A DNA stretch of 64,000 bases from Bacteroidota bacterium (GTDB lineage: Bacteria; Bacteroidota; Bacteroidia; Bacteroidales; FEN-979). The first letter of the stretch is position 1. Each line of letters begins with the position of its first letter. Below the pieces are notes generated by a model. It had not been told where the DNA came from, ran no database searches, and saw only the letters and a program-made list of their open reading frames with translations. The translations under genes and the position numbers were made by a program. Of the stretch, positions 7,858 through 22,849 are shown one piece after another. The stretch covers positions 1 through 64,000 of the forward strand of contig JAPLDO010000233.1 in assembly GCA_026391715.1 (NCBI GenBank), given 5' to 3'.

Positions 7858-9309
7858 CTACCATACGACAGAAGCTACTGATTGCGACGGAATTGAATAT
7901 GAAAAATTCTTGTTCCCTTGTTTAACCGAAAAGGTTTTTGAGGAGGAGCTGTAATTGCAAACTATCATAGCTTTCGACCCATCAGGGTTTACAAATGCCA
8001 CAGCCCCAATTTCGCTTAGGGTTTGCGGCATAGTTAACAAAACTCTGAATGCTCCGGGTCTTACGAATTTTGAAAAATGGGCAATAGAATAGTACTCTTC
8101 ATTGAATATTATCTGTCCGTTGGATGAATTGATGGTGACAACGCCCCTGCAATTGCTGCATCCGTTATTCGTGGGTCCATACTGCTGATCCAGCGCCAGG
8201 TTCCACAGGAGAGCGCATTTCGACCAGTTCTGGGTAGTTCCGATAAAGATGTTTTTCATGTTCCACATCAGGTTGGAGCCGAAATCGGTAGCCCAGGCGC
8301 CGCCGGAAATCTCAGTAAAATAAAGCCCTTTATCGGGGTAGGCATTATGAACTGCGCTCATGGCTGAAACATCGCCGGCGTAAGCATGAAAGGCAGTACC
8401 CGCTATGAATTGTCTGACTGCCGCATCATTGAGGATTGATATCGCAAAGTAGGTATTATCCCAGTTGTGATCGTAAATAATAATTTTAGTATTTATCCCA
8501 GCCGCCTGAAATTTCGGGCCAAGATGGTTCTTAATAAAAGTTGCCTGTTCGTCAGGTTGCATCTCCATGCAAGGGTAACCCGCTGTAAAGTATAGCGGTT
8601 CATTTTGTGGCGTTACAGCGGTAATCGTGACGCCATGGTTTTTCATCTCCTGAATATACCTGACGAAATAGTCGGCATAAACTGAATAACAATCAGTTTT
8701 CAATTTTCCCCCTTTCATATTTCCGTTGGTTTTCATCCAGGCGGGCGGGCTCCACGGCGATCCCATCAAACTTATTGCAGGCGTTATCTGAACAATTTCT
8801 TTTAAAATGGGAATCACATCGTTGGTATCGCCGGCGAGGGAGAAATGCTGCAAGGAAAAATCAGTTTGTCCCGATGGCAAATCATCGTAAGTAAAATCGG
8901 AAAGAGAGAAATCGGAAGCGCCGATGGTCAAACGCAAAAAGGAAATACCGGCGCCATTCACCGTGTCGAACAACTTTCGCAGCAAAGTCTGTCTGGCGCC
9001 AGAGCTTAATTTTTTATTAAACAGATAAGCCGAAGAACCTGTTAATGCCGCCCCGAATCCTTCGATGGTTTGAAGTTTTGTAACGGTATCAACAGTGATT
9101 ATTGGCACGGCGGACGATCCCTGAGCTTGTATTGACAAGTCGGCTTCTCTGTTAAATAGTTTTGATTTATCGCCGCGGGTCAGCCACACTTTGGCTTTGC
9201 CAATATCAGTGGGCGTGGGAGGATCGGGTGAAACGTTATTATCGTTGGTTTTACAACTTATCAGAAAAAGAAATATGATCAGGGTCAATATCTTTGATTG
9301 GATTTTCAT
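7858..9309 (-). CDS. GH30 family glycoside hydrolase (glucosylceramidase/endo-beta-1,6-glucanase-like), lipoprotein
   Basis: Lipobox FLISCKTND, IEGFGAALTGSSAYLFN, SPWSPPAWMKTNG, acid/base VTPQNEPLYF, nucleophile YFTEISGG. Confidence 0.92.
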   Translation of the reverse strand: MKIQSKILTLIIFLFLISCKTNDNNVSPDPPTPTDIGKAKVWLTRGDKSKLFNREADLSIQAQGSSAVPIITVDTVTKLQTIEGFGAALTGSSAYLFNKKLSSGARQTLLRKLFDTVNGAGISFLRLTIGASDFSLSDFTYDDLPSGQTDFSLQHFSLAGDTNDVIPILKEIVQITPAISLMGSPWSPPAWMKTNGNMKGGKLKTDCYSVYADYFVRYIQEMKNHGVTITAVTPQNEPLYFTAGYPCMEMQPDEQATFIKNHLGPKFQAAGINTKIIIYDHNWDNTYFAISILNDAAVRQFIAGTAFHAYAGDVSAMSAVHNAYPDKGLYFTEISGGAWATDFGSNLMWNMKNIFIGTTQNWSKCALLWNLALDQQYGPTNNGCSNCRGVVTINSSNGQIIFNEEYYSIAHFSKFVRPGAFRVLLTMPQTLSEIGAVAFVNPDGSKAMIVCNYSSSSKTFSVKQGNKNFSYSIPSQSVASVVW

Positions 9310-9353: not shown

Positions 9354-9443
9354 TTACGGCTTGCCTGTAGAACCAGTGCGCTGCAACCTTTTGTAGCAGA
9401 ATTCCGTCGGCCGCGTTTGTTTTACAGGCGTGTTACCATCAGT
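9354..9443 (-). repeat. attC-like palindrome E, immediately 3' of the PemK-like gene
   Basis: Inverted arms gcctgtagaac (9363-9373) / gttttacaggc; interior homologous to element F at 18317-18385 (TTTTGtAGCAGAA...GGCkTGTTACCAwCAG). Confidence 0.55.
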
Positions 9444-9450
9444 AAAAAGT

Positions 9451-9774
9451 TCAATCAACAAAAGTCTCCTTGATGATTGTCTTGACCCTTTTGATTTCTT
9501 TAGCTTCAAGTTCCCCAATAATTTTAATAATTCTGGTTGAATCAACAGTTCGGATTTGATCAATTGCGATCCAATTATCATATCCCTCAAGTATGAACCT
9601 GACCCTTGTAAAATAATCCTTAGACTTTGAAGTAATCGGAGCGATTGTTATTGTCCTCAGGTATTTATTCATTTCGTTAGGTGAAATTACTAAGCAGGGG
9701 CGTGTTTTTTTAAATTCTTTCCCAACAGTAGGATCCAAATTTACTATGATGATTTGATATTGCTTTATTTCCAT
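9451..9774 (-). CDS. type II toxin-antitoxin system PemK/MazF family toxin
   Basis: YQIIIVNLDPTVGKEFKKTRPCLVISPNEMNKYLRTITIAPITS PemK/MazF signature. Confidence 0.93.
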   Translation of the reverse strand: MEIKQYQIIIVNLDPTVGKEFKKTRPCLVISPNEMNKYLRTITIAPITSKSKDYFTRVRFILEGYDNWIAIDQIRTVDSTRIIKIIGELEAKEIKRVKTIIKETFVD

Positions 9775-10052
9775 TCTTCAAGATTTTCGTCAATAAAGAT
9801 GTCATCAATAAGAAGTTTGTCATCACCATTCTCATGCATTTGCTGGAATGATTTTTCCCAACCCTGCCTGGGTTGTCTTACAGGTTTTAATATTATTCGT
9901 CCTTTTTCCAATATTAACTCGACTTTATCTTTGATTTCATATTTTTCTAACAAAGATTTTGTTAATCTGATGCCTTTTGAATTTCCGATATCAATAATAG
10001 ATACTTGCATATATTTGGGCATTATAATTACATTGTAATTATAAAAATACAA
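9765..10052 (-). CDS. MazE/AbrB-like antitoxin (start probably the internal Met of MPKYMQVS)
   Basis: MQVSIIDIGNSKGIRLTKSLLEKYEIKDKVELILEKGRIILKPV; overlaps the 5' end of the toxin ORF. Confidence 0.88.
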   Translation of the reverse strand: MYFYNYNVIIMPKYMQVSIIDIGNSKGIRLTKSLLEKYEIKDKVELILEKGRIILKPVRQPRQGWEKSFQQMHENGDDKLLIDDIFIDENLEEWK

Positions 10053-10099
10053 TTTAATTTATCACGGCGCGTCTTCTTTCTATTTTATTTTTATGACTG

Positions 10100-10235
10100 G
10101 TAACGGCTGAGTGTAGAAGTAGTATGGGATTGCGGGCTACAAACCTGTCTGCCGCCACCGAAGTTTGAGCGGAACAGAATGCTTGAATTACCACTGAATC
10201 CCTTATTATATATCGCATTTATTATCGGTTGGTTT
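10100..10235 (-). repeat. attC-like palindrome A, 3' of the flavin reductase operon
   Basis: Core attgcgggctacaaacctgtctgccgccaccgaagtttgagcgg...cccttatta aligns with element B (16706-16785); starts taacggc; arms only partly complementary. Confidence 0.5.
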
Positions 10236-10362
10236 TCTTTCAATTTTGACGCATCAATGCACCAACTTGTAATAACCTATCTTAAAATACCAAAATTAGC
10301 TGGTTTATAAATATTCTTTTCCAATTTATTTTACTAATTGTATTGAAAAATTAGATGTGTTT

Positions 10363-10920
10363 TCAAAATTTCGGGTGCGTTTTCCCTATACTCCAGGCTT
10401 TTGCATACGAATCGCCCAATTGCCAGTATTTCCTTGTATTCATATCAAATAATATCGGGTCAATTTTCTTTAAATCTATTTGCCCATCGGTTAAAACCGA
10501 ATCATCGCAAAAAGTATTAACAATTTCTCCTATGAAAATATCATGCGATCCGTAATCAAGATGATCTATCAGTTTACATTCCATGTTCACTGCAAATTCC
10601 TCAATCATGGGAGCTGTTTTCATCACTCCGTAAAATGATGTAAAGAGTTCGGACTTGTCGGTGTTTTTCCCCGAAACTACACCACAATAATCGGTTACAA
10701 CGGTTTGTTTGGTCGAAGGCACATTTATACTAAATGTTTTATTTTCTATAATGCCATGCCCGCTGAAATGCACCTTTGCCATGCCCATACAAACAATGTT
10801 GGCTTTAAGCACTCCCACATGAGCCATGGTAATATAATTTGGTTTGCCATTAATAACAGTACCCACCAGCACGGTTGGCAAAGGGTACAAAGCATTTAAT
10901 GTACCTATTTTATTTTTCAT
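10363..10920 (-). CDS. flavin reductase family protein
   Basis: PTVLVGTVINGKPNYITMAHVGVLKANIVCMGMAKVHFSGHGI...TFSINVPS; FMN-binding split-barrel-like, 185 aa. Confidence 0.85.
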   Translation of the reverse strand: MKNKIGTLNALYPLPTVLVGTVINGKPNYITMAHVGVLKANIVCMGMAKVHFSGHGIIENKTFSINVPSTKQTVVTDYCGVVSGKNTDKSELFTSFYGVMKTAPMIEEFAVNMECKLIDHLDYGSHDIFIGEIVNTFCDDSVLTDGQIDLKKIDPILFDMNTRKYWQLGDSYAKAWSIGKTHPKF

Positions 10921-10926
10921 GTCTTT

Positions 10927-11439
10927 TTAAAATTTATTCCAATGTACTTTTTGCTTATCGTAGCGGCTTTTAACATCGTGTGTTTTTCCTTCAAAATGTC
11001 CGAAAGGAATTACCGAAACAGGATTTAAATTTGAGGGCAAATTAAGAAGTTCACGAATGTCGTCAATTGCATTTAGGAAGACAGCGCCCCAAACACCGCC
11101 CATGCCCTTGGCATGTATTGCCAATAAAATATTTTCGGTTGCAGCACAACAATCGTGAAAATGATAACCGATATTTTTTTCCAATTTAGTATCGCCGCAA
11201 ACTAAAATGGCTGCTGAAGCATTTTTTAGATAACCAACATTTTGGTTTAGTTTTGAATATTCCTTCATAACGCTTTTATCGGTCATCACTATAAATTGCC
11301 AAGCCTGTTCGTTCCCTGCTGATGGTGCATTCATGCCTGCTTCTAAAATTTCGCAAATATCGGTTTCCGAAATAGTTTCGTTGGTGAATTTTCGCACACT
11401 GCGGCGAGTGTTAATTATATTTAAAAAATTATTTTCCAT
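10927..11439 (-). CDS. nitroreductase family protein
   Basis: NIINTRRSVRKFTNETISETDICEILEAGMNAPSAGNEQAWQFIV; GKGMGGVWGAVF-type segment. Confidence 0.93.
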   Translation of the reverse strand: MENNFLNIINTRRSVRKFTNETISETDICEILEAGMNAPSAGNEQAWQFIVMTDKSVMKEYSKLNQNVGYLKNASAAILVCGDTKLEKNIGYHFHDCCAATENILLAIHAKGMGGVWGAVFLNAIDDIRELLNLPSNLNPVSVIPFGHFEGKTHDVKSRYDKQKVHWNKF

Positions 11440-11455
11440 TTAATTTCATAATCTG

Positions 11456-13132
11456 TCAGTCGACTAACTTTGTAGCCGGTAAAATCATTCCGTCAAATGT
11501 TGAATTTAACGACTCTGCTTTCCCTTCTTTGTTTAAAACGAATGAAATCTTACTGGCAACTTCCATTGCAAAATAATCTAATTCACCTGTGGGCAGCAAT
11601 TCGTATTTAGGCATATATGGCGTTAATACAAATAATTTGTCATTCTCTTTTATTATCTCAATTACGTAATTATTTCCAAAATCATATTTACCAGTCAATT
11701 TATCATAAAAGTCAGGATTAATTTTTATAGGAGTTTCATCTTTAAGTCTGGTCGCTTCAAAAAAATCACCGTTTTGATATTGAAATAAACGATCAACAAT
11801 TGAGTATCTGTCTGATACGAATTTAATTTTTGCATTCCGGGCCTTGAAATAAAATTCATTTTCAGAAATGGGGGTCAATGGACTTGCTTCCATAGCTGTC
11901 ATTTGTCCAAATAATTGTTTGTCTTTCAATGTTACCCATAAGGCCATCCCTTGCCCGTAATTATACCTGCCCACATATTTTTTCAAAATGTTTTCGCTAA
12001 CAATCGTGTCCACGCCAATACGCTGATTTTCGATTTTATCCTGGAGTATAAATTCAAATATTGCCTGACCATTTAATGTTGGATGAATACCTTCCGGTGA
12101 CGGAAGAGAGTTTAATAAAACACAAACGGTAAGCTTGTTTTCCGGCTGGCGTCCAAGAAATGCGCTAAAACCAGAGACGCCACCTGAATGTTGAATAAAT
12201 TTAAGTCCCCTGTTAGTAATTAAGAACCAACCAAACCCATAGTCAACCTTGCTGCCACTGTTTAAACCCGCCTGTGTGAAAGCTGCTTTTAAAGTGGCAT
12301 TTGATAATACTTTTTCATTAAAAATAGCCTCGTTCCATTTGTACAAATCCTTTGTGGTGGAATAAATACTTCCAACTCCCAAAGTCCACGACATTTCCTG
12401 AAAGTCAGCTTTCTTGACCTTTCCACCATTCATACTGTATCCTTGCGCTTCGTTATTCAATACAATATTGGTTTCGTAGATACCTGAATTTTTCATACCC
12501 AAAGGTTTGAAAAAAGTTTCGTTCAGATATTCACCTAAAGTTTTACCTGAAAGTTGCGCAACGATATAACCTAAGATAAAATAACCGGAATTGTTATACA
12601 GGTATCGTTCTCCCGGATTGAAATCGTATGGAAGTTTTTTAATGATATCAAGTAATGCCTGAGGAGTAACAGGCTTGGTCATATCCAAATTAGGTGTAGA
12701 ATTATAATCATGGATTCCGGAAGTATGCGTAAGAAGTTGATAAATCGTTACTTCATTTCCGCGTGGAAAATCGGGGATGTACTTTGATAATTTATCCTCT
12801 GTCTTTATCTTGCCTTCTTCCTGAAGTTTGAGAATAGCAACAGCCGTAAATTGTTTTGAAATAGAACCTATTTTGAATTTTGTATCAGGCGTAACAGGAA
12901 TTTTCTTTTCAATATCTGCATACCCAAATCCTTTTTGGTAAATTATATCTCCGTTTTGGGAAACCAATACAGAAGCTCCCGGCATTGTGTCAATCTGTAA
13001 ACTTCTAAATATGTGCGAAATATAGTAATCTAAGGAGGGTATTCTATTCTTTTCCTGAGCTTGCAGGTTAATACCTGCCAGAAGGTTAATCAAAATGATT
13101 GCAGACGAAACAAATCCAACTATTTTTTTCAT
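11456..13132 (-). CDS. serine hydrolase (beta-lactamase class C-like)
   Basis: FKIGSISKQFTAVAILKLQEEGK (SxxK), YLYNNSGYFILGYIV (YxN), QHSGGVSGFSAF. Confidence 0.93.
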   Translation of the reverse strand: MKKIVGFVSSAIILINLLAGINLQAQEKNRIPSLDYYISHIFRSLQIDTMPGASVLVSQNGDIIYQKGFGYADIEKKIPVTPDTKFKIGSISKQFTAVAILKLQEEGKIKTEDKLSKYIPDFPRGNEVTIYQLLTHTSGIHDYNSTPNLDMTKPVTPQALLDIIKKLPYDFNPGERYLYNNSGYFILGYIVAQLSGKTLGEYLNETFFKPLGMKNSGIYETNIVLNNEAQGYSMNGGKVKKADFQEMSWTLGVGSIYSTTKDLYKWNEAIFNEKVLSNATLKAAFTQAGLNSGSKVDYGFGWFLITNRGLKFIQHSGGVSGFSAFLGRQPENKLTVCVLLNSLPSPEGIHPTLNGQAIFEFILQDKIENQRIGVDTIVSENILKKYVGRYNYGQGMALWVTLKDKQLFGQMTAMEASPLTPISENEFYFKARNAKIKFVSDRYSIVDRLFQYQNGDFFEATRLKDETPIKINPDFYDKLTGKYDFGNNYVIEIIKENDKLFVLTPYMPKYELLPTGELDYFAMEVASKISFVLNKEGKAESLNSTFDGMILPATKLVD

Positions 13133-13207
13133 AATTACTATTTTAAAGATTACTTTTTGAGTTCATTATCAATTTATTATGATGGATCAGCATGATGCCG
13201 CAGAACA

Positions 13208-14515
13208 TTAATTTTTATTGATTCCTTTCCAATCAATCTTTCTTGAGTAATACATTACGATGGTCAAAATGACAAATAGCCCCATGCTCCCTATCAATAG
13301 GGCATAATCTTGCAACTGAAGGATGACGAAAATAAAACTATAAAGTATTACTAGATTTCCGCTCACCAAATAAGCCAATTTTTTGTCTCTAAGGATGCTT
13401 CTTGAGTACCAGGTAATTAGCCCGATTGTCATTATACTTGCTATTAAATACGCGAAGTTGAAATATAACTGCTCTGATAACGATAAGAGCAGAACGTAAA
13501 AAATACATAAGGCAAATCCAATGAGTATATACTGCAATGGGTGGATTGAATTGTTATTCAGCAATTCCAGAAAAAAGAAAATCAGAAATGTAAGCGCAAT
13601 AAACAGAATTGCATATTTGATGGAACGATCCGTTTTGGTATAATTATCAACCGGAAGGTATAACATGACGCCAAATGCCGATTCATCGACTGAGAATGTT
13701 GAATTTAGCCATGATTGTGGATAGTTCCTATTTAAATGAAGCACTTTCCAATTTGCCGAGAAGCCAGTTGATTCAATTTCCCTGCTTATTGGTAAAAAAG
13801 CGCCATCAAAACTAGGAGTTGCCCATCCGGATGAAATGCTTATTATCGTTTGTTTCCCGACTGGAGTGAAATAGAGATATTGCGAACCTCTCAATTTTAA
13901 ATTTATCGAAAAATCGTGGATGTGATTGAGCGAATCCTGGTTATTAATTTGGATTCGGGTGTTGATTCCACTTTTAAAGATGTCAGTTGTCTCAACTCCG
14001 GAATTAAATGAATACTTCGTTGTATCAAAGTTAATGGTAACGCCATTTTCAATTCCGCGCAAATCGGTTATCCCAATCGAAATAAATGCTTCATTATACA
14101 AAATATCTTTTGACTGGATTGAAGGAAGCGATGGATTAAGGTCCGAAAAAGTTCCGTAAATTTCAATATCTGATGTATATACAACGGTTTCATACATTCC
14201 CCGGTATCGTTTTTCAGGCGCTAATTTCCCTTTAATATTTAGTTCCTCAGGAAGTATATGGATGTATTTTTTAGTTTTATGCACTGTCCCATTGGATTCT
14301 CTATAATAGTCCTCGTAGGGGATGGACACAATAGGCCCTGTTAATGTTTGAGCGTTGGCCCATTTGTTGCTTACCTCTGTAAATGCCTCTTTTTGTCGGG
14401 ATTGCCTTTCATCCACTAAGGTATTAATGATTAACGTTGGAATAAGAAGCAAGATAATCAAAGCTGTGACTATAAATCCTTTGATCGTAATCTGGTTTTT
14501 TGATTTCTCAGTCAT
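13208..14515 (-). CDS. CreD-like inner membrane protein
   Basis: LLIPTLIINTLVDERQSRQKEAFTEVSNKWANAQTLTGPIVSIPY; GFSANWKVLHLNRNYPQSW; C-terminal multi-TM. Confidence 0.88.
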   Translation of the reverse strand: MTEKSKNQITIKGFIVTALIILLLIPTLIINTLVDERQSRQKEAFTEVSNKWANAQTLTGPIVSIPYEDYYRESNGTVHKTKKYIHILPEELNIKGKLAPEKRYRGMYETVVYTSDIEIYGTFSDLNPSLPSIQSKDILYNEAFISIGITDLRGIENGVTINFDTTKYSFNSGVETTDIFKSGINTRIQINNQDSLNHIHDFSINLKLRGSQYLYFTPVGKQTIISISSGWATPSFDGAFLPISREIESTGFSANWKVLHLNRNYPQSWLNSTFSVDESAFGVMLYLPVDNYTKTDRSIKYAILFIALTFLIFFFLELLNNNSIHPLQYILIGFALCIFYVLLLSLSEQLYFNFAYLIASIMTIGLITWYSRSILRDKKLAYLVSGNLVILYSFIFVILQLQDYALLIGSMGLFVILTIVMYYSRKIDWKGINKN

Positions 14516-14530
14516 TTTATTATCCGTTAA

Positions 14531-14632
14531 TTGATAGTTGCCAATGCCTTGCCAGCAGCCGCCAGTGCGGGTTTTACTTGTTGCATCGTTGCTTTTCCTC
14601 TGTCGCTAATCGGTTGGGCAGGTTTTCCCTCA
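14531..14632 (-). repeat. attC-like palindrome C (partial copy of family D), 3' of the alpha/beta hydrolase
   Basis: gccagcagccgccagtgcgggttttacttgtt...gcttttcctctgtcg aligns with element D (17871-17925). Confidence 0.45.
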
Positions 14633-14638
14633 TTTTTG

Positions 14639-15913
14639 TTATTTTTTCAGAAACTGATCGAACCAATTTTTCGCATGTATCACTGAATATATGAAAGTTG
14701 CACGATGATCGGCTTTATCTCCTGCATAAACAGCGGTTGTGGGTCCACCGCCCAAAACTTTTTGAAAAGTTTCAGGAAGTCTTGCTATAAAAACCGGAAC
14801 CACCTCGTCAGAGCCACCATAATAATTATACAAAGGCGTATGACTGCGCCAGCGGTATGCCTGACTTTTATCTAAAACTTGCCAATATGGACTTTCGCAT
14901 GTGTTCCCGCTTGCCAGGAACTCAGGCTTAAGATAATCCTGCAGTTTGTCTTTGGTAAGTTTTCTGAAAGTCGCCCAATCTATTTTGCTGTTGTAAAAAT
15001 CGATGGATGCCTGAAGATACTCGGGGCGAATTGCCGAGGCAGTTAATCCAACCTGTTGGTGATAATATTCCTGTGCCTGAATCTGCAATGTTATACAACC
15101 CGGAAGATAAACAGCATCAATTGGTTGATAATTATTAAACCATCGGTCATACATTACAAGTCCATCTGCCGGAGCGCTTGCTGTTGCAGTTGCTGTTACG
15201 GTAATTCCTAAAGATTCCAATTTTTGCAGTAAGACCAGTGTAGCCCAGCCGCCCTGCGACCATCCGGTTAAAAATAATGGACCCTGCTTGATTTTTTTTG
15301 AGGTCAGGATGCTATTGGCTGCAAATAACATATCAACACAGGCCTGTTGAGCGCTGTTTAAAACAAGGTAGCTGTCGGGAAGGTCAGACATTCCTTTTCC
15401 AAAATAATCAGCGCATACAACAATATAACCCTGCGATGCAAACCGCGAAACTATGATTTTTGTCTCCATTGAATTTTCCGGGAAAGATGGCGCTTCGGTT
15501 TTGGAAAATGTTGTTCCATGTTGATACATCAACAATGGCATAGAATCTGAACCATTTTCAGGAATAGCAATTAATCCGGAAGCAACTACTGGCCTGTTGG
15601 AGAGTTCAGGTATTACTGAATTATATTTTACACGATACAATTTTACAGGATATGTTGCAGGCGGGAAACTGTCGTTATATGCCTTGGAACCAACCGTGGA
15701 AGTCTGTAAAAAATCTTCGAGATCTTTCTTGAAAACTTCGTTTAGTTTATGGGTGTCATAAGTTCCGATTAATTGGTATTGAACGCCGGACGATACTTTA
15801 ATATAATCATTGTCAGCTTGTCCGAAGGACTGCGGCAAGAAACCGATGATTAAATTGAAACAAAGGACACAAGCCCCAATTCCTGTTTTGATACTACCAC
15901 TTATAATTTTCAT
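14639..15913 (-). CDS. secreted alpha/beta hydrolase
   Basis: LLMYQHGTTF, nucleophile elbow LTGWSQGGWATL, C-terminal DHRATF. Confidence 0.82.
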   Translation of the reverse strand: MKIISGSIKTGIGACVLCFNLIIGFLPQSFGQADNDYIKVSSGVQYQLIGTYDTHKLNEVFKKDLEDFLQTSTVGSKAYNDSFPPATYPVKLYRVKYNSVIPELSNRPVVASGLIAIPENGSDSMPLLMYQHGTTFSKTEAPSFPENSMETKIIVSRFASQGYIVVCADYFGKGMSDLPDSYLVLNSAQQACVDMLFAANSILTSKKIKQGPLFLTGWSQGGWATLVLLQKLESLGITVTATATASAPADGLVMYDRWFNNYQPIDAVYLPGCITLQIQAQEYYHQQVGLTASAIRPEYLQASIDFYNSKIDWATFRKLTKDKLQDYLKPEFLASGNTCESPYWQVLDKSQAYRWRSHTPLYNYYGGSDEVVPVFIARLPETFQKVLGGGPTTAVYAGDKADHRATFIYSVIHAKNWFDQFLKK

Positions 15914-16102
15914 AATTATCAGTTTTGATGTTGTTTCATTGATAGAAAATTGTACAGGTTACCAATCTGACATTTTGTAAAATAATGGAAATGCATTTTT
16001 GTCGGTGACCATCCTAAGAAATAATTTCAATTTATATATTTGCCCTTTGGCCATTATTATTGTCGGGTAACGCAGGCGGGTTACCCTGCCCTTGTCCCCT
16101 AA

Positions 16103-16138
16103 GAACCGTACTTGATAGTTTCCCATCATACGGCTCAG
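16103..16138 (-). ncRNA. group II intron domain V hairpin
   Basis: rc of agaaccgtacttgatagtttcccatcatacggctc: conserved GAGCCGTA...GAAA...TACGGTTC; coordinates approximate. Confidence 0.75.
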
Positions 16139-16182
16139 TCTCTCCAAAGGCGGATTAAACCACCCGGCAATTTACAATATAT

Positions 16183-16436
16183 TCAGTTCACAAATCTGTA
16201 CCTAAACCTTTTGACGAAGTAATTATCCCAGGAAGTATCGAAAGGATTAGCGTTTCCATTAATGAGCCGATGACGTTTGATATGGAAGTAGCCAAACATG
16301 CGAGGCAAGATAATCTTACCGATGTGTGTAATTTTGGTTTTCTCCGGTGATAAGAGTAACCCCCTTGTACTCGTATAAAACATACTTGCATCCTGTCTTC
16401 TTGCCATTTTGGCCAATGTGTATCAACAACTTTCAC
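16183..16436 (-). pseudogene. group II intron reverse transcriptase/maturase fragment (two frames)
   Basis: TRGLLLSPEKTKITHIG and FGYFHIKRH resemble the RT thumb region (...LSPEKTKITHI...FLGFHIRR...), with most of the RT missing. Confidence 0.65.
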
Positions 16437-16672
16437 ATTTTCGCTGCATGACGGTACGTCGCCGGCAGTTTATATGTTTTCACCATACCACCAAAGCCGA
16501 CGCCTTTCAGAATGTTGTTCTGTCAGGGAATCTTGTTCCGGCAGCTTCACACCCCAATGTTGCCATTGACGCATGTGCCGGTAGGCTACTCATGATGGAA
16601 CATGAGATTAAATCACTCTTATAAAGAACGTTTAAAGTTATTTGAACGGCCTCGTGCCGCACTTCTAATTGA

Positions 16673-16802
16673 GCCTAACGATTGAGGCTATATGCAGTTA
16701 GGTATTGCGGGTTAAACATCTGTCTGCCGACACCGAAGTTTGGGCGGGTCAGGATGCTTGACATACAACCGAAACCCTTATTGCATATAGCCTTCGTTAG
16801 CG
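16673..16802 (-). repeat. attC-like palindrome B, 3' of the Fic gene
   Basis: Arms ctaacgattgaggctatatgca / tgcatatagccttcgttag pair almost perfectly; minus-strand ends GCTAAC...GTTAGGC (the latter fits attC GTTRRRY); shares core with element A. Confidence 0.62.
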
Positions 16803-16875
16803 TTTCGTTGTTTTCTATTTTGTCGTTTCGCTTTTCATTTTTTTGTTGTGTCCTGCCCCTTTTGCCGTTTTTTCT

Positions 16876-17775
16876 TTAATCATTTTCTTCGTAATAATAT
16901 GAGTAGTCAATTCCTTTCATAAACATTTCGCGGTCGTTTATTTTAGTGGTAAGCGCTTTTTCCAAAAGTGTTTTTAGAACACTACTTTGGATTGGACTTA
17001 ACATCATTGCGTTCATGTAATCTCGCTTGCTTATTTTACTCCAATCTACGCATTTTTTGAGGCGTTTTTTTAATATCAAATCCAACCATATTCGGGCGCT
17101 TCTGCCGTTGCCTTCCATAAAAGGGTGTGCAATGTTCATTACTATATATTTGTTTACGATTTCGTCAAATGTAGTTTCGGTCATTGCTTCTATTTGCATT
17201 AATGTGTCGCCTAAAAAGCGCGATACGGCAAATTGAAAACCACCTTTTGAAATATTTTTTTGTCTGATTTGTCCCGCAAAATCATACAATCCGCCAAACA
17301 AATAAGCGTGTATTTGTTGCAAACCTTTAGTTGTGCCAACTTCTATGCTGTTGATAAAAGAACTTTCAAACATGGCATACGCTTTTGTTTTGCTTTTTCC
17401 ATCTATGCTTTCATCGCTGTACGTAAACCATTCTATAAATCGGTTTGCCTTTTTGCTCGGAAATTCTTTGCCTAAGGCAATAATACCGGCGTAATCCAAC
17501 ATATCGCTTAAATATCGTTTACCGTCGCTTGCTAAAAGTTTCAGTTGGGTAGTGGCGCTAACCAACTCGCTGGTTTCTTTTTTTATTTTGGCTTTAAGGT
17601 ATTTCCAATAGTTGCGGGTTTTGGTGTAGTCGTCTTGGTCGGTAAGCAAAGCTACAATATCCAACACACTAAACCACCACTTGGCGTTTTGTTCGTCCCA
17701 AACGGCTCGCACTTCGCGGTCGTCAAAAAAACGTATGGATATTTTTGTATTACTCATAATTTTAATGTTAACCAT
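16876..17775 (-). CDS. Fic/DOC family protein with N-terminal Bro-N-like domain
   Basis: Fic motif [15 protein letters not shown]-terminus [32 protein letters not shown]...[12 protein letters not shown] resembles Bro-N/antirepressor domains. Confidence 0.88.
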
Positions 17776-17861
17776 TCTGTCACGCTGTAATTATTCGTGC
17801 AACGTTATGTTAATTTTTATCTTGTAGTTGAAGTCTGCGGCGTCACGTTACAATAAACGCC

Positions 17862-17987
17862 AACGTGCCACCGGCAGCCGCAGTGCGGGATTTACTTGTT
17901 TTATGTTTGCTTTTCCTTTATCGTTTATAGGTTTGGTGAATGCCCGCCTCCGGAAACCGCCCGCAATGCCCGGCTGCCAGTTCGTTA
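17862..17987 (-). repeat. attC-like palindrome D, 3' of the orphan T9SS-tail ORF
   Basis: Arms ccggcagccg..tgcggg / cccgcaatgcccggctgcc with aacg/cgtt outer ends; left half homologous to element C. Confidence 0.5.
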
Positions 17988-18019
17988 CCTGCAAGGGTTC
18001 ATTATTCAGTGTGTTTTGA

Positions 18020-18319
18020 TCATAATTTAACGACTTTCTCCGTAAACAATAATTTATTGTCAGATGAAAACACATTTATGACATAGCTTCCAGGTTTAAG
18101 GTCTGCAACTGATATCCTATTCTCAAGGGTTCTAATTGTATTGCAAGTCTTACCCCCCGAGTCAGTAATGACAATGTTTTTGATTCCATTAATTGAAATT
18201 GTCAGCAGATTACTTGTCGGATTTGGGTAAATCACATACTCGGTTAATGATACATTTTCAACAACGGGTCTCATACTGTTTTTAATGACTTTTTTAGTAA
18301 TCGATTTATGAGTCCCCAA
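18020..18319 (-). CDS. orphan T9SS C-terminal sorting-domain ORF (probable gene fragment)
   Basis: EYVIYPNPTSNLLTISINGIKNIVITDSGGKTCNTI...DLKPGSYVINVFSSDNKLLFTEKVVKL; no signal peptide or passenger. Confidence 0.75.
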   Translation of the reverse strand: MGTHKSITKKVIKNSMRPVVENVSLTEYVIYPNPTSNLLTISINGIKNIVITDSGGKTCNTIRTLENRISVADLKPGSYVINVFSSDNKLLFTEKVVKL

Positions 18320-18390
18320 ACTGCAATTTTGGTAGCAGAAAACCGCTGATTGCGCTGGTTTTGCAGGCTTGTTACCAACAGCACTTGGTT
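18317..18390 (-). repeat. attC-like element F, 3' of the HigA-like antitoxin gene
   Basis: ctgcaattttggtagcagaaaaccgctgattgcgctggttttgcaggcttgttaccaacag; homologous to element E; short arms ctgcaa/ttgcag. Confidence 0.5.
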
Positions 18391-18391
18391 A

Positions 18392-18697
18392 TTACAAAAT
18401 TGTCAAACGAATCTTTTTGCCAAGCCCAGTCTCAAATATCTTGAATAAGGTTGATAATTGAATGTCGGCTTTTCCGTTTTCAAGTCTGGAAATATAACTT
18501 TTCTTCGTCCCTATTTTGTCTGCTAATTGTTCCTGTGTAATATGGGCTTCTTTTCTTGCTTCTTTTAACATTTCTGAAATAATAAAAAAATTCGCTTTGG
18601 CATCATACGCGTCTCGTAACGAAGTGCCTACTTTGCCATACTTTATATCCAAGAGTTCATCGAATGTTTTAGCGTTTCTTATTGCTTGTTCTTCCAT
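18392..18697 (-). CDS. XRE-family HTH antitoxin (HigA-like)
   Basis: EARKEAHITQEQLADKIGTKKSYISRLENGKADIQLSTLFKIFE helix-turn-helix. Confidence 0.9.
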   Translation of the reverse strand: MEEQAIRNAKTFDELLDIKYGKVGTSLRDAYDAKANFFIISEMLKEARKEAHITQEQLADKIGTKKSYISRLENGKADIQLSTLFKIFETGLGKKIRLTIL

Positions 18698-19049
18698 TTT
18701 CCTTAGTTTTTGAACTTTTAAAATATTCCCGCTTCAGTCGGAGGGCTTTCTCAATTTCTTTCAAAGGTGTTTTCTGTGTCTTTTTTTGAAATCCGCTGAA
18801 TAAAACAACAATATTTCCCTCATCGAAGCAGCAGAAAATTCTGTATATATTTGAACTGTATCCTACTTTCACTTCATAGAGGCCATCAGTACCTTCAATT
18901 AGGCTGAGAAATTTCTTAGAAACTCTCTCAGCCTACCTGATTATTCGCAGCACAAATTCTATCTTCTCCTGAACCCTTGTCGTTTGTTCAAGATAGAAAT
19001 CAGCAAAGTTGCTGCCATGAAATATGATTATTCTTTCAACAAATTTCAC
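18669..19049 (-). pseudogene. HigB/RelE-superfamily toxin interrupted by an in-frame TAG
   Basis: One frame reads (GTG)KFVERIIIFHGSNFADFYLEQTTRVQEKIEFVLRIIR-TAG(18933-18935)-AERVSKKFLSLIEGTDGLYEVKVGYSSNIYRIFCCFDEGNIVVLFSGFQKKTQKTPLKEIEKA. Confidence 0.82.
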
Positions 19050-19123
19050 ATTACAAAGTTAACGGTAAAGTCAACATTTCCTAATTTTCGTTAACAGTAT
19101 GATCCTGTTTTTTTAGGGTTGTT

Positions 19124-19230
19124 GCTAACGGTTAAGGTATTGCCACAGTGCCGTCCGCTCAAATGTTTCAAGTTACCACAAAACTTTCTGGCGGCATTGT
19201 GGCAATACCTGCGTGATGTGTTCGTGCTTT
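19124..19230 (-). repeat. attC-like palindrome G, 3' of the DNA methylase gene
   Basis: Arms aaggtattgccacagtgccg (19134-) / cggcattgtggcaatacct (-19210), flanked by gttgctaacgg and gcgtgatgtgttcgtgc. Confidence 0.6.
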
Positions 19231-19256
19231 TATTTTCCTTTGGTCTGTCGTTTGAA

Positions 19257-20147
19257 TTACATTGTCGCTTTCTTTCTTGTTCGTTTATATTTCACTTTTG
19301 GTTCAAACAAACAATACTGACTTTCCTCAGCAATTTGTTTTGGTAATTTTTGCAGGTAGTTTGAAATAAAAAGTTCTTTTCCTGTTTGGTCAGAAGTGTC
19401 TGTAATATTTCTCATACCATAAGTCAAGTCCCAGGGAATAATGTTTGCGAATGAAAACAAGTCCCGGATATATTCACTGTCGTCATAAGTAATGAGCCAA
19501 TTGTGTTTGCAGTTTTTCATTGTATCTGCAAACCGAATGTGGTCAAAAACTTTGTGCAGGTTTCCGTTCTTTCCGTAAAGAGCCGATTTAGTTGCTGAAT
19601 GATAAGGCGGGTCAAGAAAAATAAATACATTTTCCCCATCTTGTTTTACTAACTCTTCATAGTCAAGATTAGTGATAGTTGAGCCGTTAATTACTTTGGC
19701 AAATTGATTAAGTCTTTTAATACTGCTTTCGGTGAAACGACCTGTAAAAGCTCCTTCACTAAAACCACCGCTTAAACTTGTTCCGGAAAATGTAATTCGG
19801 TTGTAAATAAAAAACGCTGCGGCTCTTTCCAAATCATTAAAGCCTGATATATTTTCATTTAAAAATTTATGTAATTCTTTTCCTATTGTGAATTTATTTC
19901 GCCATTCATAAATTTTATCAATTAAAGTATCTACGTCTCGTTGCGACATTTCCCAAAATTTAAAAAGTTCAAAATAAAGGTCGTTGACCCAAAACTTTTT
20001 ATTTGGAAATCGTTGTTTGGCATAAATAAAAATAGAGCCTCCACCTAAAAATGGTTCACGAAACTCTTCAAAATAGGGCAACAGAGTTGAAATTAAGTCA
20101 ACGGCTCTGCTTTTGCCTCCAGGGTATCTTAATGGACTTTTTATCAT
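19257..20147 (-). CDS. Dam-type (D12 class) DNA adenine methylase
   Basis: LRYPGGKSRAVDLI, FLGGGSIFIYA, motif FIFLDPPYHSATKSALYG. Confidence 0.93.
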   Translation of the reverse strand: MIKSPLRYPGGKSRAVDLISTLLPYFEEFREPFLGGGSIFIYAKQRFPNKKFWVNDLYFELFKFWEMSQRDVDTLIDKIYEWRNKFTIGKELHKFLNENISGFNDLERAAAFFIYNRITFSGTSLSGGFSEGAFTGRFTESSIKRLNQFAKVINGSTITNLDYEELVKQDGENVFIFLDPPYHSATKSALYGKNGNLHKVFDHIRFADTMKNCKHNWLITYDDSEYIRDLFSFANIIPWDLTYGMRNITDTSDQTGKELFISNYLQKLPKQIAEESQYCLFEPKVKYKRTRKKATM

Positions 20148-21235
20148 TTTGAATATTGTACTTTAATGATAAACTTGTTCTGTTTAGCTTCCGCTATTAT
20201 AGTTTCAATTAAAAGGATTTGCGAAACTGAAAGACTATTGTTTTTGAAAAATTCAGAGAGTTCGCTTTTAGAGCTTGAAGAAGTAATGCCTCCTTTAAGT
20301 TTCGAAGATGTCAAACATAAAATAGCTTCACTTTTTATTTTCTTGCTATCTGCAGTTACTTCTGAAAGATTACAATACAAAATCATTTTTAGCAAACCAT
20401 CTTTAATGTCGCCTTTTCTTGGAAGTATAACATTTTTGCTATGCTTTCCTTCAATTAAACTTACCTTGTTTTTAGCAATTAAAATTTCATCCACTGTAAA
20501 AAAATACTGTCCGCCTAAATAGTTGTTTATAGTAACTTTTGCTTTTGATAATGTGGATAAACTTTCTTTTGGTTGAAAAGTTGCAAATTCTCTTGACTGT
20601 GCTTTCTCTGCTTTACCTCTTGAAAACTCCATAAACTGCGAAACATCTTTTCCGATTTTGTTTTGAAAGTTTTCAAGTCCTGAGAAGCCGTGCAGTTTAA
20701 CTCCTGATGATTTTTCTATTGATGTATAAGATGTTTTTACTTTCTCAATAATGGAGTGAATATTTGTATTCAATTCATTTAAATTCCAATGCAAGGCAGA
20801 ACTGTGATATTGTTCAATCTCTTTAATCTTTGTAAGCACATATTTATTGTCAAACTGTTGGTTCGTAATTTTCTTATCTGCTTTGTCAGCTTTGTTGTAG
20901 TAAGCAAAAATCACGAACACATCAAGCAAACTCATAAGTGAAACGGTATCCCATTGGATATAATCTCTGTCACCTACTGCGCCTTCGTCCTTAACGATAG
21001 GAATTACAGTAATCTTTTTAGAAATGTTGAGCGTGTTGTAAACTCTTGCATACGGAAATGAACGGGTGCGTTTAGGTGAAACCCATCTTGAGATTGCAAA
21101 AGAATGTTTACCGTCATTGATAATGCAGGCAGTTGGTACTTTGTTAATGTCAAAGTTAACCGATTCAATTTTTTCAAGTTCGGTTGCAAGTAAAACTTTG
21201 TATGTTATTCCTGTAATTTTTCCTGATATATTCAT
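20144..21235 (-). CDS. putative type II restriction endonuclease partnering the methylase
   Basis: 4-bp overlap with the methylase ORF; EILIAKNKVSLIEGKHSKN is a possible PD-(D/E)XK ExK segment; family not recognised. Confidence 0.55.
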   Translation of the reverse strand: MNISGKITGITYKVLLATELEKIESVNFDINKVPTACIINDGKHSFAISRWVSPKRTRSFPYARVYNTLNISKKITVIPIVKDEGAVGDRDYIQWDTVSLMSLLDVFVIFAYYNKADKADKKITNQQFDNKYVLTKIKEIEQYHSSALHWNLNELNTNIHSIIEKVKTSYTSIEKSSGVKLHGFSGLENFQNKIGKDVSQFMEFSRGKAEKAQSREFATFQPKESLSTLSKAKVTINNYLGGQYFFTVDEILIAKNKVSLIEGKHSKNVILPRKGDIKDGLLKMILYCNLSEVTADSKKIKSEAILCLTSSKLKGGITSSSSKSELSEFFKNNSLSVSQILLIETIIAEAKQNKFIIKVQYSK

Positions 21236-21382
21236 TTTGCAAATTTAAAGTTTCGTTTCATTTTTATATTAGCACTGTCTGCCAATCTTTTTAAGCATGA
21301 CACATAACGCCAAAATAACCACAATACTATTTATGTCCAATTAAACCCAAGGTGTTTACATTCTGCAAAAGGGGTAATTCGG

Positions 21383-22849
21383 TTAATATCCCGGATTTTG
21401 CACCAGCTTTGAATTTTTATCAAGCTCAGCTTGCGGGATAGGCCAAAAAAGCCTGTTTGGCGTGAGGTTATAACCTATTTTTTTACCATCCGGTCCAACT
21501 GCATTGTTCATTACTTCAATCGCTCTTCCTGTGCGTTTGAGATCAAACCAGCGATGCGCTTCATAAGCAAGTTCGAGCCTTCTCTCCTTTTCAATGGCAA
21601 GCCTCATGGCATCCTGGGTTGTGGCAGGTGTATTCTGCAATTTTGCCCGACTTCTGATCTGATTAACAAGAGCTGCAGCGCCTGACAAATCGTTTAGTTC
21701 GTTTAAAGCTTCGGCTTTTAGCAACAGAATATCAGCGAGGCGGATGAAGATGTAGTTTTGATCGCTTCCCGTCGTAAAATTCCGGTACTTGTTGATAAAT
21801 GGATAGTGTGTTTGAGGCCAGTTCGGATCTGACCATTTTCCGGTTACATCCAGAAAAATAATGGAAGCGTTTTTTCTCAGAGTGTCTTGCTCATCGTCAA
21901 ATGCTTTCGTCAAATCATTCGCAGGAAGGTTGAATTTTTTCCAATCCAATCCCCTGAAAATTGTAACGCCCCAATTACCATCGGTTATGCCGCCTGTATA
22001 GTTGATTTCAAAAATTGACTCTGCCGAATTTTTATTCTGATTGTTCCACAGATCATTGAATTCAGGCATCAGGCTGTATCCTCCGGAAATTACCGCGTCA
22101 CAATATTGGGAAACTTTTCCCCAGTCATGAGGCGACTGAGTTGCATAAACGTAGGCAAGCATTGAATTAACAGCGCCTCTTGTTACATAGCCCTTATTGA
22201 CTGCAGTAGCCGGTACAACTGCAACAGCAGTTTCAAGATCGGCAATTATTTGCTTGTAAATCGTTGCCATTGCGGTACGCGGAGGAAACAGGATAGGATA
22301 AATTTCAGCCAGATTACTTGAACTGATTGACTTTACCTCCTTCAACTGCAAGGGAACATCGCCCCAAAGTTGCACCAGTTGAAAATACATGAAAGCTCTG
22401 ATAAATGAAGCTTCTCCAATGATTTGCTTTTTTCGCTCCGGCGTAAGTACCGGGTCGGGACATGAGTTCACATTATTGATTACCAGATTTGTTTTTCCAA
22501 TAGTGGAATATAGGTAACCCCAGTCGCGGCTGACATTTGAGTTGGTTGCGTCGAGTTTAAGAGCGTCAATCTGAAAATTGGCAGGATTATCGCCGCCTGA
22601 ATATGCATCGTCGGATTGGGCGTCGCCGTTTACGAAATAATCGAGCTGGTAATACTCGTTTTTAAAATCGCCATAAGCTCCGCCCAAAGCGGCTTCAACC
22701 TCCTCGGCATTTTTATATAAAACCGAATCGGAGCTGCTGTTTTCAATTGCAATTCCCTGCGATGTCGGTTTCAGGTCGAGAAATTTCGTACATGACTGAA
22801 ATGAAATTCCGCCCAGAATTATTATCGCTAAAATGATTATCCTTTTCAT
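21383..22849 (-). CDS. RagB/SusD family protein
   Basis: From internal Met: MKRIIILAIIILGGISFQSCTKFLDL lipobox; FIRAFMYFQLVQLWGDVPLQ; ERRLELAYEAHRWFDLKRTG; LVQNPGY. Confidence 0.95.
   Translation of the reverse strand: MKRIIILAIIILGGISFQSCTKFLDLKPTSQGIAIENSSSDSVLYKNAEEVEAALGGAYGDFKNEYYQLDYFVNGDAQSDDAYSGGDNPANFQIDALKLDATNSNVSRDWGYLYSTIGKTNLVINNVNSCPDPVLTPERKKQIIGEASFIRAFMYFQLVQLWGDVPLQLKEVKSISSSNLAEIYPILFPPRTAMATIYKQIIADLETAVAVVPATAVNKGYVTRGAVNSMLAYVYATQSPHDWGKVSQYCDAVISGGYSLMPEFNDLWNNQNKNSAESIFEINYTGGITDGNWGVTIFRGLDWKKFNLPANDLTKAFDDEQDTLRKNASIIFLDVTGKWSDPNWPQTHYPFINKYRNFTTGSDQNYIFIRLADILLLKAEALNELNDLSGAAALVNQIRSRAKLQNTPATTQDAMRLAIEKERRLELAYEAHRWFDLKRTGRAIEVMNNAVGPDGKKIGYNLTPNRLFWPIPQAELDKNSKLVQNPGY

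Follow-up and report, generated by a model that had tools for sequence, protein, structure and literature searches.

The systems described so far that most resemble the locus analyzed here are classical integrons and CALINs, in which a cassette consists of a gene and a palindromic site 3' of it with YAAC/CGTTR ends, and crossover takes place at G^TT. In these systems, a landing site and the array come after the recombinase gene, recombinase-less clusters occur, and the cargo includes toxin-antitoxin (TA), restriction-modification (R-M), defense, and resistance genes; the system described below shares all of these features. IntI enzymes are defined by an insertion specific to them (PMC8352920). 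Classical attC sites have RYYYAAC/GTTRRRY boxes and an inner stem and recombine as a folded single (bottom) strand, and a CALIN has two or more canonical attC sites and no IntI in the vicinity. According to the IntegronFinder 2.0 study, integrons are nearly absent from Bacteroidota, with only In0 elements known earlier and one complete integron, in Salinibacter ruber (PMC9024848). XerA and XerC/D resemble the recombinases described here in that their tyrosine recombinase core has no IntI insertion, but XerC/D act on dif and not on cassette arrays and lack HARP repeats. REP/RAYT systems also place palindromic intergenic repeats 3' of genes. In addition, a tpnF/xerD-tet(X3)-ISCR2 unit on Acinetobacter plasmids, in which our analysis places tet(X3) as the first cassette behind tpnF, has been described as ISCR2 mobilized (PMC7722449, PMC7494873); the terms "integron" and "attC" are absent from PMC7494873, and "integron" and "integrase" are absent from PMC7722449.

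In the window, which is the whole 64,000-nucleotide stretch of DNA analyzed, every main ORF from 9.35 to 21.3 kb lies on the minus strand. These encode a PemK toxin and its partner, a BRO-N/Fic protein, a type II restriction enzyme and a D12 methyltransferase, a Gp49/HTH pair, CreD, a serine hydrolase, a nitroreductase, a flavin reductase, and an alpha/beta hydrolase. No IS91-type transposase is found among the main window ORFs, and no recombinase gene adjoins the window array, which has seven sites. The cluster spans 9357..21308 on the minus strand, from the first cassette start at 21308 to the end of the last site at 9357, and it lies between a SusD gene (ending at 21383) and a GH30 gene (starting at 9309) of one PUL. 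In all eight relatives with this PUL that were examined, SusD and GH30 are direct neighbors separated by 63 to 421 bp, compared with 12,074 bp here; because the two genes adjoin in 8/8 relatives, the block is, as judged from these sequences, an insertion within one PUL. The base-exact empty site at the PUL is not readable because the intergenic DNA of the relatives is too diverged. A sequence-only reading of this DNA had proposed an all-minus block of ~12 kb with cassette-typical genes (TA, Fic, R-M, and hydrolases), with which the ORFs and gene types agree, and seven palindromes located 3' of genes in one relative orientation and forming the families A/B, C/D, and E/F, which their positions and sequence relatedness confirm. 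Its placement of the array between two PULs has to be corrected, since the array sits inside one.

Each of the palindromes E, A, C, B, D, F, and G sits immediately 3' of a minus-strand gene, where that reading placed it, and A/B, C/D, and E/F form pairs related by sequence (D1 74%, D2 80%, D3 76%). As single-stranded DNA, B and G fold far better than shuffled sequences (z of -3.99 and -4.15, respectively), E folds weakly better, and A, C, D, and F fold no better than shuffles, which indicates that several copies have decayed. Truncation or decay affects C, D, and F in the window, and three cassette borders there are not delimited; we count both points against the explanation favored here. At all four sites that could be tested (G, F, B, and E), the best match of the left arm among 213 GTT positions is the predicted start of the site's own cassette, at 21308, 19129, 17864, and 10104, respectively. 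All features of the cluster are on the minus strand. Cassette 1 (19129..21307) starts with ^GTTATGTGTCATGC at 21308, as predicted from the left arm of G, carries the type II restriction enzyme (20144-21235) and the D12 adenine methyltransferase (19257-20147), and ends in recombination site G (19129..19227), a palindrome with 19-nt arms that are 95% complementary and with the end CCG^TT. Cassette 2 (18323..19128), the start of which at 19129 is matched by the left arm of F, comprises a Gp49-like fragment and an HTH gene of toxin-antitoxin type and ends in site F, which is truncated on its 3' side. It is followed by a fragment with a Por secretion tail and site D (17865..18322), which retains just the 3' portion of a C/D-type site, a type also present in the array of a relative (L078). 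Cassette 4 (16680..17864), starting at 17864 according to the left arm of B, encodes the BRO-N/Fic protein (PADLOC PDC-S04) and ends in recombination site B (16673..16810), the best-preserved site of the 120-bp class, which also shows arm covariation. Cassette 5 (14531..16679) contains the alpha/beta hydrolase gene (14639-15913) and ends in the degenerate site C; an ORF-less group II intron remnant (16062..16662), with matches to RF02012 and RF00029 and a GTGCG start just 3' of site B, is inserted in it. The genes for CreD, the serine hydrolase, the nitroreductase, and the flavin reductase occupy 10105..14530 up to site A and form one span in which no internal cassette borders are delimited. 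Site A (10098..10232) belongs to the A/B family and has partly decayed arms. Cassette 7 (9357..10104), with the PemK/MazF toxin and its partner, starts at 10104 according to the left arm of E and ends in E, the last site, which has the end CCG^TA.

About 14 A/B-type copies are dispersed across this genome, with the upstream gene co-oriented with the copy wherever this is clear, and the arms covary among copies (GGCTATATGC/GCATATAGCC versus GTGTAGCAGC/GCTGCTACAC). Two covariance models were used: R1, built from eight A/B-type copies of this genome only and blind to recombinases, and R2, built from 58 array sites from other genomes. R1 matches site A with an E value of 9e-29. R2 gives its sole significant matches in the 64 kb at A (E 6.9e-8) and B (E 3.8e-13) and finds ten more sites in the loci read in the same genome; no recombination-site family in Rfam was matched. 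R1 sites are present in 33 of 61 genomes (this genome and its relatives) and in places form tight arrays in which a site sits between the stop codon of one gene, which it follows directly, and the start codon of the next. The layout is YAAC, hairpin, CGTT, with the YAAC/CGTTR ends and the inner stem conserved in 80 sites. Site length is nearly fixed in these 80 sites, with a median YAAC-to-CGTT distance of 120.5 bp (5 to 95% range, 118 to 123) and about 120 bp ± 3 in most, and the outer arms are ~10 bp long. Cassettes start with GTTRNNNNNNA, and the final A (position 11) is found in 75 of 79 starts; most left arms have C there, which makes an A.C mismatch a constant feature. Left arms are more complementary to the start of the cassette they belong to (75 to 97% over positions 4 to 9) than to the sequence beside the site (38 to 81%), and they match their own starts at 6.9 of 10 positions, compared with 3.4 for the following start and 3.1 for the control (p 2e-5). 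Such pairing is expected if the site is perfect in the circular cassette and is divided when the circle integrates at CG^TT. Among the scattered single copies of this genome, the predicted start is clear for two (L225 and L227) and not for the rest.

A tyrosine recombinase of 280 to 680 amino acids, in most cases with N-terminal HARP-like repeats, is encoded near several arrays. The member in this genome (542 amino acids) is located on contig C79 and not beside the window array. Among 80 named loci encoding relatives of the C79 recombinase, 33 of 34 R1 matches are downstream of the recombinase gene and on its strand (p 1.7e-23). Because R1 was built without knowledge of recombinases, this linkage is independent evidence. 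A model-free detector (YAAC, stem, CGTT) applied to the same loci gave 54 sites downstream on the recombinase strand versus 10 elsewhere. Hosts of the arrays include Arundinibacter roseus, Aquiflexum, Algoriphagus, Flavobacterium, and Zunongwangia, and no match to the recombinase was found in phages at an E value of 1e-40. At the genome level, R1 sites and the recombinase are not correlated across the 61 genomes (21 with both, 12 with sites only, 16 with the recombinase only, and 12 with neither; p 0.79), which we count against the explanation; the use of one site family under R1, common recombinase-less clusters, and draft assemblies probably account for it. A landing site beside the recombinase gene is found in loci of other genomes, where the first cassette starts 23 to 224 bp past the end of the recombinase match in 17 of 24 loci. 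The intervening stretch is often AT rich, and an attI-like inverted repeat is clear or significant in only a few loci. The AlphaFold2 model of the Arundinibacter member shows three repeats at the N terminus, along with a SAM-like and a catalytic domain. IntI4 is both the closest solved fold and the top profile match of the recombinase, and the XerA profile (NF040815) nearly reaches its cutoff. In a 46-row quick tree, the array recombinases are separable from IntI, and this tree does not decide between a sister group and convergence.

Comparisons between genomes revealed that genes and sites with G^TT borders are gained or lost as units. One cassette is common to genomes of two families, being 93% identical with an almost identical site, and the identity ends at CCGTT. 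The tet(X3) unit is common to Acinetobacter plasmids and an Empedobacter brevis plasmid (97.5% identical) and starts exactly at ^GTTATGTGCC in both. In Acinetobacter, the unit is preceded by TnpF, which belongs to the recombinase clade in truncated form (57.6% identical, with tree support of 100); in Empedobacter, another site precedes it, with R2 sites flanking tet(X) on both sides. The match of the tet(X3) left arm to its own start is tied for best and not unique, so the tet(X) case rests on the junction of the shared cassette. In addition, a 1,029-bp aadS cassette, together with its site, is present at CGTTGTACG in only one of the Empedobacter plasmids pLPY01 and pYWS9-3-1, and the flanks on its two sides are identical at 999 of 1,000 and 700 of 700 positions. 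These comparisons, together with the arms that match their own starts, give the outcome that the sequence-only reading had set as a check: genes and palindromes form units that move with exact junctions at the GTT end. Its suggestion that an IntI or another tyrosine recombinase be sought yielded no IntI over the cutoff and a tyrosine recombinase on C79, away from the array. Of its two readings of the block, as CALIN-like or as a distinct Bacteroidetes cassette system, the distinct system is supported, and membership in the classical integrons is not.

That the cluster is the CALIN of a classical IntI integron, with the palindromes being ordinary attC sites, is very improbable. The YAAC/GTTR ends of the R box and the G^TT junctions agree with such a reading, and a true IntI gene is present in one congeneric genome (G003) and in one of the same order. 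However, no IntI in this genome matches TIGR02249 over the curated cutoff, sites of this kind do not occur near the two true IntI loci, where R2, as in the class 1 integron array of L222, finds no match. The seven window sites are of a different class from canonical attC sites, and sites of this class differ from those of classical integrons in their nearly fixed length of ~120 bp, longer outer arms (~10 bp), and constant mismatch. Unlike true IntIs, the array-linked recombinases lack the IntI-specific insertion and have up to three N-terminal HARP-like repeats; they match TIGR02249 at 7-179 and 238-315 only, below the cutoff. Moreover, at R1-positive loci the array is downstream of and co-oriented with the recombinase gene, and the system is distributed in Bacteroidota.

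The dispersal of the copies across the genome would suit REP/MITE-like palindromes mobilized by a RAYT or another HUH transposase and associated with genes by chance, but this genome has no Y1 (TnpA-REP) transposase (no match to PF01797, with positive controls), the sites form tight arrays downstream of one recombinase family, left arms fit the starts of their own cassettes, and genes travel with the site. This explanation is refuted by the gain or loss of gene and site together with exact junctions, and we regard it as extremely improbable. It is also very unlikely that IS91-family rolling-circle elements, consisting of a Y2 transposase and an accessory tyrosine recombinase, move the genes and that the palindromes are their ends. 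IS91-type pairs do lie beside sites in L066, L067, L068, and L240, which is counted against the explanation favored here, and the tet(X3) unit, truncated in Acinetobacter, is moved there by ISCR2 (PMC7722449). However, such elements adjoin few sites only, one-sided transposition gives neither two CGTT borders nor complementarity between arm and start, and downstream sites are absent from the Proteobacterial members of the 80 recombinase loci (L153-L161).

The window block is therefore very probably a CALIN-like cassette cluster of an integron-like system of Bacteroidota that has a HARP-repeat tyrosine recombinase and exchanges cassettes at CG^TT. Cassette units, exact CG^TT junctions, complementarity of the arm to its own start, linkage between recombinase and array, and insertion into the PUL are evident at the level of sequence. 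A cassette unit comprises TT, the gene or genes, a left arm ending in YAAC, the hairpin, and CG, and it presumably leaves as a circle and reinserts at CG^TT. We infer that the tyrosine recombinase with N-terminal HARP-like repeats catalyzes this exchange with a folded single strand as its substrate and that the enzyme encoded on contig C79 can act on the window sites. In the complete arrays of other genomes, the gene for this enzyme lies in cis, just upstream of the attI-like landing site, and in this genome it lies on C79. The cluster entered between SusD and GH30, lacks an adjacent recombinase, and is partly decayed. By what it does, the system works like an integron, and its enzyme and site set it outside the known family. 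It is likely a Bacteroidota integron class of its own, characterized by a HARP-repeat recombinase that has no IntI domain, a hairpin site of nearly fixed length, and a landing site, which arose as a sister of the known integrons or as an independent invention, has gone unseen since detection tools require IntI or canonical attC, and underlies the mobility of tet(X), estT-floR, and aadS as cassettes. The system is apparently undescribed and widespread in Bacteroidota; our literature searches, whose scope excluded preprints and most subscription journals, found no description of such a system.

If this reading is true, a widespread parallel system would alter the view of integrons as nearly absent from Bacteroidota and would provide a second model of cassette capture and shuffling. 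The system predicts pairs of site and enzyme for a simple assay, and the existence of IntI-like enzymes without the IntI domain would make the long-open question of integron origin directly testable. It would also provide a mobility mechanism for tet(X), which confers tigecycline inactivation, and for aadS and estT-floR, some of which are already in Acinetobacter.

Resistance genes in Empedobacter plasmids lie between sites of this class. In two of these plasmids, estT-floR and aadS occupy such positions (L238:5303-9006 and L239:6390-9064), and aadS is either present or missing, with exact borders. The tet(X3) gene is flanked by a site on each side in Empedobacter pSE1-3-9kb (L235:698-2033), whereas in Acinetobacter p80-1-2-tetX3 (L220:6046-8165) its site is truncated; the start of the tet(X3) unit is common to both plasmids and exact at GTTATGTGCC. 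A further cassette of the own genome, on contig C149 (L225:5515-8659), comprises an HTH control gene, a D12 methyltransferase, an AlwI-type restriction enzyme, and a terminal site, with an acetate-kinase-like gene downstream.

In Arundinibacter roseus, the recombinase is followed by a single-strand-binding protein gene (L082:11711-12058) and then by the first cassette. The solitary true IntI genes of a congeneric genome (G003, L030:6291-7232) and a genome of the same order (G049, L031:12267-13175) score above the TIGR02249 cut-off, and no sites of this class were found near them. Pairs of an IS91-type transposase and a tyrosine recombinase directly adjoin sites of this class (L066:993-1907, L067:2967-3530, L068:2282-3223, and L240:3816-5758), which may be their targets. 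The attC sites of classical integrons are known homing targets of group II introns; in the window, an ORF-less group II intron remnant (16062-16662, minus strand; RF02012 and RF00029) starts 17 to 18 nt past site B's CG^TT boundary, on the 3' side; B is the best-preserved 120-bp-class site there.

Judging from these plasmid sequences, tet(X3) behaves in both Acinetobacter and Empedobacter as a cassette of this integron-like system.
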